Assembly (NCBI RefSeq): GCF_963259705.1
Contig: NC_081851.1
Span: 17,768,145-17,832,144 of the forward strand
Reading direction: 5' to 3'
From: Myotis daubentonii
Taxonomy: Eukaryota; Chordata; Mammalia; Chiroptera; Vespertilionidae
Length of the DNA: 64,000 bases
Shown: positions 2,887 through 58,243 of the stretch, in pieces
Layout of the letters: each line of letters opens with the position of its first letter
Position numbering within the stretch: position 1 is the first letter of the stretch
Translations under genes and position numbers: made by a program
The notes under the pieces: generated by a model
The model's input: the letters and a program-made list of their open reading frames with translations, nothing else
Told to the model about the DNA's origin: nothing
Databases searched by the model: none

Positions 2887-3212
2887 TACCTTTAACAATA
2901 AAGATAAATTTTTTAAAAAAGAAAATATTCACCACCATTCCTGAGAAGTGGCCAAAGGACTGGAACTGTGGAAAGGTTTATTTCAGCCCCATAAGTAAGC
3001 AAGAGTCTAGGCATAAAAGAAAAAAACATGTTAACTTGATAATTTATAATGGTTGTTAATTCTTAGGAACTATTTTACCATTTTTTAAAGTTGCGGTATG
3101 ATTTGCATGCAGTGAAAGGTTCAGTTATTAAGTGTATCTTTCAGTCAACTACGGTAAGTGCGAAGGCTAAATGCCGTCATCTCCACGCCTCTCTCTAGTC
3201 AGTTCCCCAACG
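2887..3212 (-). repeat. Right arm of the inverted duplication
   Basis: Reverse complement of 82-407 at about 94% identity. It begins with only the last ~30 bases of the L1 3' end (TTTAACAATAAAG plus A-rich tail) and then runs through the same unique sequence, including 'gcggtatgatttgcatgcag'. There is no poly(A) at its far end near 3212, so it does not look like a retrotransposed copy. Confidence 0.9.
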
Positions 3213-11938: not shown

Positions 11939-12585
11939 ATTGGTTTTGTTTCTCTGGAAGACCCTAACACAAATGTTATTATTTTATGGTCCAGAAAGAC
12001 AAGAAAAGGGAGAAATCAGTATTACGAAGATTCCATCTTCATTAACTTCTTCGGCAAGCGCCATCTGTTTGATCATGGCTGCCTGATATAGTGGGAGAAC
12101 GTACCTGGGTGTTTCCTTTCTATTAGAAAATGAATACGAATGTTTATTAAGATAAACTTAAGTAACATTTAAACTTCCTGATGACACCATTAGGCAAAGA
12201 TTTTTTAGATTTAACCCACCTAATCACAGAAGCGTACGGCTAAGTTCTTTTAGCGGAGAAAAAAGGATCTCCTTACCCCTTTCCTCACTTTGCTAAAGAA
12301 CACTAAGCTCCTTTCCTACAGAACAGCCCCTTTCAATTGCGACTGACACTGTATCTAAGAAACATTTAAGTATTTGCAAAAAATTAGAACTTATTACCCA
12401 GGATGAAACATTCAAGGACTATATGCAGCTTTAGAAAGGCTAGAATATATTAAATTAGAAACTAACAATTTGCTTTAATATCTCTTCACTCCAGACAGAG
12501 ATAAATACAGCTATCCTATATAATAAAAGGCTAATATGCAAATCGACTGAGCAGTGGAACAACCAGTCGCTATGATTCGCACTGA

Positions 12586-12601
12586 TCACCAGGGGGCAGA
12601 C
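12586..12601 (+). promoter_or_regulatory. CTCF-like motif inside HeliBat copy A
   Basis: TCACCAGGGGGCAGAC resembles the CTCF core consensus (CCACNAGGGGGC, then RG/RC), with the first C replaced by T. Binding is not shown by sequence alone. Confidence 0.4.
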
Positions 12602-12613
12602 ACTCAACACAGG

Positions 12614-12629
12614 AGCTGCCCCCTGGTGG
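12614..12629 (-). promoter_or_regulatory. CTCF-like motif inside HeliBat copy A, opposite strand
   Basis: On the minus strand it reads CCACCAGGGGGCAGCT, a very good match to the CTCF core. It is the inverted partner of 12586-12601, with 12 bases between them. Confidence 0.5.
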
Positions 12630-13324
12630 TCAGTGTGCTCCCACAGGGGGAGCGCCGCCCAGCCAGAAGCCAGGCTCATGGCTGGCAAGCTCCACAGCAG
12701 AGCTAAGGATGTCCAACTGACAGCTTAGGCCTGCTCCCCCAAGGGCTCCCAGACTGTAAGAGGGAGCAGGCCAGCGGAGGAACCCTCCTCCCACCACCAA
12801 GTACACAAATTTCGTGCACTGGGCCTCTAGTTTGTTATAACTAAGCTTCCTGAAACATTTGATATTCTGACTACTTCTGCTAGAATAATGAAACGCTTGA
12901 AGTACAGAAAGTGCAATCTATTTCTTTCATTATCTGTTAATGGCAACCTTTTTCATCTCATGCACACATAAACTAATTACTAAAATTCTGCAGCACACCA
13001 AAAAATATATTATATGTTTCGCTGATCTGACAAAAAAAATTGGTATGATTTTGATTAATTCATACGAGAGGCTATTGTTGTACTGGTGGTTGTCATTTTT
13101 TAATTTGACAATCTAAGGGGAAAGAGGTCAGTGCCCCTGACTAAATAGTCAGGTATTGCGTGTTTAAATATCATTGTGGCCCACTGATCTAGGAATATGA
13201 TGATGAGATTATATTCTAGATGGCATGGGGAAGAGCAAGTTGAAGGGAGGAAAACAAAGATAAGGAAGAAGAAAATTAGTGTACAAGACAATTTCAGAAA
13301 ATAAAGGTGATGTGAGAGCGAGTT

Positions 13325-13847: not shown

Positions 13848-14059
13848 GCCCGGCCGGTGCTGCTCAGTGGTTGACCACTGACCTATGTGCCAGGAGATCA
13901 TGGTTCCAATCCCCGTCAGGGCACATGCCAGGTTTTCAGGCTCAATCCCCAGTAGGGGGCTTGCAGGAGGCAGCCAATCAATGACTCTCTCTCATCATTG
14001 ATGTTTCTATCTCTCGATCCCTTACTCTTCCTCCATGAAATCAATTTTTTTTTTTAAAG
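13848..14059 (+). mobile_element. Ves SINE
   Basis: Starts GCCCGGCCGGTGCTGCTCAG and carries 'cagggcacatgccaggtt', 'gcaggaggcagccaatcaat' and the CT-rich tail with a T/A run. A short AGTTGT duplication may flank it. Same 'ccggtg..ctcagtggttgacc' subgroup as the copy at 37688. Confidence 0.93.
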
Positions 14060-16445: not shown

Positions 16446-16506
16446 CCAGACCAAATGATTTCATGGGTCTCATATGGCCCTCAGGCAAGACGTTCCCCAC
16501 CCTGGA
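16446..16506 (+). mobile_element. hAT MITE fragment
   Basis: 'ccagaccaaatgatttca', 'tatggccc' and 'cgttccccaccctgg' parallel the right-hand third of the hAT MITE at 32717-32906, in the same orientation. The left two thirds and any target duplication are absent. Confidence 0.65.
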
Positions 16507-17264: not shown

Positions 17265-17481
17265 GCCCTAGCTTGTTTGGCTCAGTGGATAGAACGTCAG
17301 CCTGTGTACTGAAAGGTCCCTGGTTCGACTCTGGCCAAGAGCACATGTCTGGGTTGCAGGCTCGATCCCAGTAAGTGGCATGCAGGAGGCAGCCGATCAG
17401 TGATTCTCTTTCATCATTGATGTTTCTATCTCTCTTTCCCTCTCCCTTCCTCTCTGTAATCAATAAAACTATATTTTAAAG
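17265..17481 (+). mobile_element. Ves SINE with clear target duplication
   Basis: Starts GCCCTAGCTTGTTTGGCTCAG. The A box TGGCTCAGTGG and B box GGTTCGACTCT are both present, and the tail ends in AATAAAACTATATTTTAAAG. It is flanked by AATATGTCAATCA at 17252-17264 and 17482-17494, so the copy is complete and was inserted by L1-type target-primed reverse transcription. Confidence 0.97.
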
Positions 17482-19060: not shown

Positions 19061-20555
19061 GTAATTCATTACCATTAATGATGAAAATAATATGGCCAAA
19101 TAAATATTTAGTGTTTTTTTTGGTGTGTTTTCAATGAACTGCCATACCCATTAATCGTTTTATTTTATACTCTTAGGATTAGAAGAGTATATTAACTGTA
19201 TAATTCACAGATGGAGAATATATCCATCCACTTAGCAAGCATTTCTTAAGCATCTATTATATGTATTTACAACAGGAAAATCAGACTCACATATAAATCT
19301 GTTAACTTAAAACTGTATTATTTATGTTTCTTGTCCTATGTCAAAGTCTTAACAAGTTTTTGACATACTCTCTGTCTGGGCAGAAAATAAAATCTAATGT
19401 TTAGATAGAAAATTAATGCTTTAGAAATTAGGTAATAATGAGAATACATATGCCCACATCCAAAAACATGTGCCCGAGGACACAGACGTCCCTTATCTGA
19501 TTTGGTGCCAAAAGGGGGCAGGATAAAATGAAGCCACTGAAAACAGAGGCTGAAGTCCTACACTAAATAGTAAAATAAGCTTCCTATTTCACCCAAAAGC
19601 TAAAAAATAAAACTTATTTATTTTTATAACAACACTTTTATGTCCTAATTGCAACCATGCACTCAGTCTTAAGCGAAGAATGAATCAAGCCACAATTATT
19701 CTTCAAAATAAATTCTCCGACCCTTGAGAATGAACATCTTGGTGGGTTTTTTGATCCATAAAGAGGATTGCTTTTACGAAGATGACTGAGAGTGTCTGTG
19801 ATTCTTACAAGGATTTCTCTTTCACAAAAAAATACCTACCGCGTTATCATCCTGGTTGTTCATGCGCCAATGGCCCTGCCTATGAACTGAGTTCTCCAAC
19901 ATCATTTTCATTGCTATCATGAAATCCCTCATTTGGGTAAAAACTGCATGTCACATTTCTAAATTGCAGTGTATTTGCAAGTTAGTGTCAGAAATGTACA
20001 GCGTCGTAGTGAGGGACAGACAGACAGACGCCTGGTTAGGTAAAGAGGAAGGTTTGAGTAGAGGTTAATTTTATAAAGGGTCAGTTCATTAGTAAATACA
20101 ACAACTTGATTTTCTCTACAGCCCTGGCAGTGCCTGGCTTCCCTGCGAAGGATGTGGAGGCTGAGTGAGGGGCAGGTTGCCTCCTTTAGAGAACAAGAGG
20201 GGCCAGCTGAGCTCCGTTTCTCTCGCTCCACCTCAGAGCAGTCCTTGGCTTTCCAAGCACCCGGTAAACCCTTGCTTGGTTCCCTCCATCCCATGCCCCC
20301 ACCACGAAAATGCTCGCCTCGACCTGCCCTCCAACATCTCGCTCTTCTTCCTTCCATGATTTCCCAGTCCTGCCTACGATTGTTTCTAAGCTTTGCTAGG
20401 AAAATAGCTCCTTAGGATAAAAAACTCACCTAACTCTGCTATGTGGGATTGAAAAGGGGTGCGTGTGCAGAAGCCCTCTGACGTGACACATTTCCCGTTA
20501 CCAGAGCCTCTGTGCTCCTCCTTATCAAAGGACCGACAGGTGCAGGCCCACAGCC
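19061..20555. other. No recognised feature
   Basis: AT-rich up to about 19960, then more GC-rich. The 132-codon open frame at 19959-20357 (-) shows no known domain. Confidence 0.45.
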
Positions 20556-32716: not shown

Positions 32717-32906
32717 CAGGGGTGTGCAACCTTTTTTCTATCAAGGGCCATTTGGATATTTATAACATCATTCACGAGCCATACAAAATTATCCTGCTAT
32801 ATTTGGTCAAACATTTAATTAACTCACCCCTACTGGCTCGGCCGGGCCAGACCAAATGATTTCACAGGCCTTCTATGGCCTGTGGGCTGGACGCTCCCCA
32901 CCCCTG
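32717..32906 (+). mobile_element. hAT MITE
   Basis: Ends are CAGGGGTGTGCAACC and GCTCCCCACCCCTG, imperfectly complementary. They are flanked by CTCTGAGC (32709-32716) and CTCTAAGC (32907-32914), 7 of 8 identical, a hAT-type duplication. Body 190 bp, no ORF. A fragment of the same family lies at 16446-16506. Confidence 0.88.
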
Positions 32907-55559: not shown

Positions 55560-55801
55560 TTTATCTGGACACATAGTGACCCAACATAACGGATGGACAC
55601 ATATCTTAGCCTTCTCTGAAGCTAAGATAGTCAGGTGACTTCTTCTGGCCAATAGGATAGGAGAGGATGTGGTTTGTTTTCCTTCCAGATTGAACCTTTA
55701 AAGGGCAAGATATGCCCTTCCCTTCTCCTGCAGACTAGAACGGAACATGGACCATCCTGGATCATGTGGATACGCATAACACTCCTATAAGTGGCAGAGC
55801 C

Positions 55802-57775: not shown

Positions 57776-58043
57776 TTAGAGGCCCAGTGCATGAAATTCA
57801 TGCACTCGGGGCAGGGGGAAGGGGGTGCCCCTCAGCCCCCCCTGCACCCTCTCACAGCCCAGGAGCCCTCAGGGGATATCTGACAGACGGCTTAGGCAGT
57901 GAGTGGACCTAAGCTGACAGTCAGACATCCTTAGCACTGCCACGGAAGCAGAAAGGTTCCCGCCACTGCCGCTATGCTCGCCAGCCGTGAACCTGGCTCA
58001 GGGCTTCTGTCTAAGCAGCACTCCACCTTTGGAAGCACGCTGA

Positions 58044-58059
58044 CCACTAGGGGGCAGCT
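58044..58059 (+). promoter_or_regulatory. CTCF-like motif inside HeliBat copy B
   Basis: CCACTAGGGGGCAGCT is a very good match to the CTCF core consensus. It corresponds to the motif at 12614-12629 in copy A. Occupancy is unknown. Confidence 0.5.
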
Positions 58060-58070
58060 CCTGCATTGAG

Positions 58071-58086
58071 CATCTGCCCCCGGTGG
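58071..58086 (-). promoter_or_regulatory. Weaker CTCF-like motif inside HeliBat copy B
   Basis: On the minus strand: CCACCGGGGGCAGATG. Inverted relative to 58044-58059, as in copy A, but the A of the CCACCAG core is missing. Confidence 0.35.
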
Positions 58087-58159
58087 CCAGTGCACGTCAC
58101 AGTGACCGGTGGTTCCGTTGTTGGGTCGATTTGCATGTTAGCCTTTTATTATATAGGAA

Positions 58160-58239
<80 letters not shown>
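58160..58239. repeat. (CA)n(TA)n compound microsatellite
   Basis: About 10 CA units then about 29 TA units, starting directly at the 5' end of HeliBat copy B. Confidence 0.97.

Positions 58240-58243
<4 letters not shown>

Follow-up and report, generated by a model that had tools for sequence, protein, structure and literature searches.

The Helitrons of bats are the sole Helitrons reported in sequenced mammalian genomes, and the Helibats of M. lucifugus number more than 100,000 copies when all subfamilies are summed (PMC4778049, partial text). HelibatN1 to HelibatN3 and Helraiser have 5'-TC and CTRR-3' ends, an AT target and, 11 nt before the 3' end, a palindrome of 19 bp, and resemble the copies described here in their ends and palindrome and, for copy A, in the target; the available text of that source mentions neither a left-end hairpin nor a CTCF motif in describing them (PMC4778049). 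Deletion of the left end abolishes Helraiser transposition, and deletion of the 3' palindrome lowers it (PMC4778049, PMC5876387, both partial text).

Rodent B2 SINEs are, like HeliBat, lineage-specific transposons that hold a CTCF motif, and B2 spreads this motif by the thousand; B2_Mm1 in Mus caroli carries it, and a single base change altered binding (PMC5880236, partial text, citing Schmidt 2012, PMC3368268). B2 is a retrotransposon with binding seen by ChIP-seq and a motif that the available accounts do not describe as an inverted pair, whereas HeliBat is a rolling-circle DNA element whose CTCF-like words form the inverted pair of a hairpin and are known from sequence alone. The parallel with B2 that was drawn in an earlier note on this DNA fits in its logic, but the mechanism of spread differs. 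MER20 is a cut-and-paste transposon with a different motif layout and is not a Helitron. It is, like HeliBat, a DNA transposon, and supplies CTCF-bound sequence in mammals (PMC7786948, partial text). Caenorhabditis Helitrons with HSF-1 sites are likewise a Helitron family that disperses sites for a host factor and rewires the regulation of host genes; they differ in that the hosts are worms, the sites are heat-shock elements rather than CTCF motifs, and binding and induction have been shown (PMC6927752, partial text). The 2xCTS sites bound by CTCF and BORIS consist of two CTCF motifs less than 100 bp apart and are palindromic in the TP53 promoter (PMC4562119, PMC5973138, both partial text); these sites are defined by occupancy, whereas the HeliBat pair, read only from the DNA letters, consists of the two halves of a single inverted repeat, ~12–14 bp apart.

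The dispersal of CTCF sites by transposons and of host-factor sites by Helitrons is already known; as far as the literature search reaches, the rolling-circle carrier with an inverted, CpG-free pair is new. A full-text search of limited reach returned no paper naming both HeliBat and CTCF and no published text containing the letters of the arm sequence, and the text available, that of PMC9446614, PMC8232201, PMC7786948 and PMC8896005 included, ties no Helitron to CTCF binding; in a bat Helitron paper that names CTCF, it is an RT-qPCR target (PMC9446614, partial text).

Methods

The whole 64-kb stretch of DNA under analysis (the window) was scanned on both strands with a working version of JASPAR matrix MA0139.1 (19 columns); its column sums (908–913) were consistent and the maximum possible score was 26.1 bits. 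Word counts were made against a degenerate CTCF consensus that we take to be CCASYAGRKGGCRSY. The p < 1e-6 cutoff follows the recommendation of a CTCF-site package paper for MA0139.1, in which 88.80% of human matches past this cutoff and 21.84% of weaker matches overlapped a CTCF site in one or more cell types (PMC9793704, partial text). Scores were compared with 20,000 dinucleotide shuffles of each element and with 200 windows of 64 kb generated by a first-order Markov model. These controls assume independent positions, and the two elements are kin and their arms mutual copies; because of this, the enrichment was counted as one event, a single rare match within a single family. The CTCF scan was prompted by the earlier note, whose author had examined many things, and one such match would not be astonishing given how many repeat families a genome holds. 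Neutral decay was simulated from the presumed ancestor of the hairpin in 4,000 copies, with an assumed transition bias of 2 and a CpG factor of 8.

HeliBat copies in the window

Two non-autonomous Helitrons of HeliBat type were found, copy A at 12514–12830 (+ strand, 317 bp) and copy B at 57776–58158 (− strand, 383 bp). Their first bases are identical (TCCTATATAATAAAAGGC), and both run from 5'-TC to CTRR-3', ending in CTAG in copy A and CTAA in copy B. Copy A is flanked by A (12513) and T (12831), as expected for HeliBat; copy B is flanked by T on both sides, its 5' base being T where A is expected, and a CA/TA microsatellite (58160–58240) adjoins its 5' end on that side. Both copies have a short palindrome whose distance from the 3' end is 11 nt. 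In copy B its fold is strong (z −4.9, equalled by 0 of 200 shuffles); the decayed 19-nt palindrome of copy A (12801–12819, + strand, 11 nt before the CTAG end) occupies the same place with a fold not above shuffles (z −0.1, 93 of 200 equal or better). Because the termini match those described for bat Helitrons, the name HeliBat fits both copies.

Of 316 aligned columns, the copies agreed at 247 and differed at 69, and the alignment had 68 gap columns in addition; 53 of the 69 substitutions were transitions. The 22% difference corresponds to about 11% per copy, given equal decay. A blastn search of the window (E ≤ 1e-3) and an nhmmer search (E ≤ 10) returned copies A and B and their own palindromic or self-matching parts; one extra nhmmer match, at 1075–1121, was at chance level (E 3.9). 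Exact-pattern searches gave no match in viral contigs (four patterns) or contigs of prokaryote genomes (two patterns), which has no bearing on bats. A coding context was also considered for the locus and dropped, a Pfam scan (E 0.01) of 10 of the 25 open reading frames of at least 110 aa having given no match.

CTCF-like words in the two copies

The three highest CTCF scores in the window all belong to arms of the HeliBat pair. The right arm of copy A (12614–12632, − strand) scored 21.27 bits (p 3e-8, uniform background), the right arm of copy B (58041–58059, + strand) 20.85 bits (p 5e-8, uniform) and the left arm of copy A (12583–12601, + strand) 16.96 bits (p 1.03e-6, uniform; 4.3e-7, window composition), followed by 13.11 bits at 19505 and 12.49 bits at 55633. 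The cutoff of p < 1e-6 is thus passed by both right arms and is borderline for the left arm of copy A. Sites sampled from the matrix averaged 17.2 bits, with 18% reaching 21.27, 22% reaching 20.85, 57% reaching 16.96 and 96% reaching 8.86 bits.

In copy A the words lie where the earlier note had placed them, TCACCAGGGGGCAGAC at 12586 on the + strand and CCACCAGGGGGCAGCT at 12614–12629 on the − strand, with 12 bases between. The corresponding pair claimed for copy B holds up in part: the words are in place (CCACTAGGGGGCAGCT at 58044, +; CCACCGGGGGCAGATG at 58071, −), but the second arm is ruined by a one-base deletion within the core (CCACC-GGGGG), and no intact pair is left. This degraded left arm (58071–58089, − strand) scored 8.86 bits, fourteenth in the window (p 8e-5, uniform), and fails the cutoff. 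In both copies the stronger arm is oriented toward the 5' end of the element.

The window contains two exact matches to CCASYAGRKGGCRSY, both within HeliBat right arms, where 0.02 were expected; none of 100 shuffles had two. It is very improbable that the arms are G-rich CTCF-like words produced by chance alone, without a history as a feature of the family. Words with up to two mismatches are not rare, there being 12 in the window (three HeliBat arms and nine elsewhere) against 5 expected, a count that 0 of 100 shuffles attained, and just two copies of the element were at hand; against chance, the strong arm sits at homologous positions in both copies despite the 69 differing columns, and shuffles seldom match it. 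Among 20,000 dinucleotide shuffles of copy A none reached 21.27 bits (largest 20.95) and 77 reached 16.9, and for copy B 6 reached 20.85 and 94 reached 16.9. Of the Markov windows, none reached 21.27 bits, 1 reached 20.85 and 24 reached 16.96, with a best score that averaged 14.35 bits.

Facing pairs with both words at 10 bits or more were found in copy A only, and in none of the 200 Markov windows. When facing and back-to-back pairs with starts 19–60 bases apart were admitted at 6, 8 or 8.8 bits, copies A and B were recovered and nothing else in the window. Copy A also has the spacing of a 2xCTS (<100 bp), each of its arms scoring at least 10 bits; in copy B one arm, at 8.86 bits, falls short of that score.

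No CpG occurs in three of the four arm 19-mers (both arms of copy A and the right arm of copy B), and one occurs in the degraded left arm of copy B. An upstream CTCF element resembling CAGCTGTTCC is absent beside all four arms, the best matches being 4–5 of 10 positions at gaps of 2–10, which are the commonest values at random positions. Such an element lies a few bp away in 13–15% of CTCF sites (PMC12885311, partial text), and its absence does not exclude CTCF binding.

Elsewhere in the window, the top CTCF-like match outside HeliBat lies at 19505–19523 (+ strand, 13.1 bits), and members of a SINE-like repeat at 13946–13964 and 17376–17394 carry weak CTCF-like words of 8.2 and 9.9 bits, far under the HeliBat right arms, and so provide a comparison from the same DNA.

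The left-end hairpin

The CTCF-like words of copy A are the two arms of a hairpin stem at 12578–12637 (+ strand), near the 5' end of the element (element positions 65–124), with 22 consecutive pairs (20 Watson-Crick and 2 G-T) and 3 further pairs within the loop. As a DNA fold this stretch is markedly stable in copy A (z = −6.5, 0 of 200 shuffles equally stable) and weaker in copy B (z = −2.6, 4 of 200 as good), so that the hairpin, which the earlier note had offered as an alternative, is real at the level of sequence. Because both motifs are arms of one palindrome, the inverted pair is one coincidence and not two; the question left by the palindrome is why the arm word resembles the CTCF motif. 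A second small hairpin (GCTCCC...GGGAGC) follows directly in copy A at 12637–12653, and a more diverged version of this stretch aligns in copy B.

The hairpin most likely belongs to the element, as part of its left end or as a chance foldback, and not to CTCF. The 22-bp stem could be element-serving or a hitch-hiking chance foldback; this is the main rival to a CTCF reading, and it leaves room for CTCF to bind as a by-product. Its strict form, in which the hairpin serves the transposon alone (transposase recognition, strand folding or left-end replication) and the likeness to CTCF is coincidental and never or rarely read, is in our judgement unlikely. It draws on the stable fold, on the second hairpin immediately after, and on the position of the stem within the ~150-bp left end, the deletion of which abolished Helraiser transposition (PMC4778049, PMC5876387, both partial text). 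The available text of the same papers, however, describes a palindrome of bat Helitrons only near the 3' end and mentions no hairpin at the left end. Against it, too, a motif coincidence this strong is rare by the scan, the shuffles and the consensus count, and most human matches of such strength overlap CTCF binding in some cell type (PMC9793704, partial text).

A 74-nt stretch around the stem also folds as RNA from either strand, at −47.5 and −41.5 kcal/mol in copy A and −39.3 and −34.2 kcal/mol in copy B, energies that carry no shuffle control. Transposon-derived bat microRNAs exist, and the hairpin might accordingly act within a host transcript as a small-RNA precursor, an explanation that we regard as quite implausible. 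Precursors of animal microRNAs usually have ~33–35 stem pairs, more than the ~22–25 pairs of this stem, and a search of the entire window gave no Rfam family at or above its gathering score.

Ancestral state and decay

All substitutions between copies A and B inside the hairpin are transitions (4 of 4 in the left arm, 2 of 2 in the loop and 2 of 2 in the right arm), and CA/TG contrasts in the loop suggest decayed CpG. The defects of the arms amount to one C-to-T change in copy A and one deletion in copy B. When the single T of the copy A left arm was reverted to C, the base present in copy B and in agreement with the facing arm of copy A, the score rose to 21.4 bits. Since the left arm of copy A is restored to 21.4 bits in this way and that of copy B lost one base, an ancestor with two arms of ~21 bits is indicated. 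The ancestor of the subfamily very probably had a near-perfect stem of ~22 bp with a near-consensus, CpG-free core TGACCACCAGGGGGCAG in each arm, the two facing each other across ~12–14 bp. The earlier proposal that the pair is ancestral gains support because the diverged copies A and B (69 of 316 columns differing) share the palindrome in register. As an old feature of this HeliBat subfamily, the CTCF-grade hairpin is well supported, from two copies only.

After simulated decay at 12% change per copy, 77% of copies still had a best arm of at least 13.1 bits, 50% had one of at least 16.98 bits, and 27% had two arms of at least 13.1 bits; exactly one arm thus stayed at or above 13.1 bits in about half (77% minus 27%). 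At 20% change the corresponding values were 46%, 20% and 6%. Copy A, with its pair kept, and copy B, with one arm kept, can both arise by decay alone, and selection after insertion is therefore not needed. A selection signal on the right arm was considered and rejected, as its conservation in excess of the rest of the element was non-significant (differences at 2 of 24 columns, binomial tail 0.08, or at 1 of 19, tail 0.06). The case for Helitron spread as a source of paired sites is weakened, both arms being kept in one of the two copies and in 27% of copies simulated at 12%.

Predicted dispersal and binding

The reading we favour, which we hold to be fairly probable, is that an ancestral HeliBat hairpin with CTCF-grade arms was dispersed by rolling-circle transposition, and it predicts that a share of the copies is bound by CTCF, a protein involved in the folding of mammalian chromosomes. 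Whatever its original use, the hairpin would have been copied through the bat genome with the element, and each fresh copy would be a CTCF-like site that can be read on both strands. As copies age, about half would retain exactly one good arm and a minority both.

In copy A the 15-bp cores (12586–12600 and 12615–12629) face each other 14 bp apart. Fingers 3–7 of CTCF bind the 15-bp core, and the N-terminal side of the protein lies downstream of it (PMC12885311, partial text). Two CTCFs bound side by side would have their N-terminal sides meeting across ~14 bp, and CTCF is therefore predicted to bind its share of copies mostly as a single molecule. As a counterpoint, both members of a palindromic pair of CTCF sites in the TP53 promoter can be occupied in vitro (PMC4562119 section 7). 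So tight a pair would hardly anchor a loop between its own members; it would rather act as one anchor of undecided direction and, after decay of an arm, as a single oriented site.

CpGs occur at two motif positions in 29% of CTCF motifs, and methylation there affects binding (PMC10325916, partial text). Because their cores are without CpG, the putative HeliBat sites would be insensitive to methylation of the motif and slow to decay. HeliBat repeats may nevertheless be methylated or packed into heterochromatin and thus unbound; CTCF binding at the arms and its effect on the folding of bat genomes are accordingly spoken of here as predictions.

A bolder version is tentative, and we think it somewhat doubtful: that an abundant HeliBat subfamily had an ancestral left-end hairpin with facing, CpG-free CTCF-like sites, that its burst in vesper bats spread tens of thousands of these orientation-ambiguous sites, and that many are bound and serve as lineage-specific chromatin anchors. 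If CTCF does bind intact copies, vesper bats would provide a natural experiment parallel to that of rodent B2, a datable rolling-circle burst of CTCF sites in an inverted layout without CpG. One could then study how well genomes tolerate new anchors, whether two facing sites behave differently from one, and whether Helitrons rewired the folding of the bat genome.

Other repeats in the window

An inverted duplication of ~324 bp with 94% identity was seen at 85–407 and 2887–3209, its arms ~2.5 kb apart; it may have arisen by foldback duplication or consist of two related repeats. Direct repeats of 57 bp with 79% identity lie at 16446–16502 and 32847–32903.
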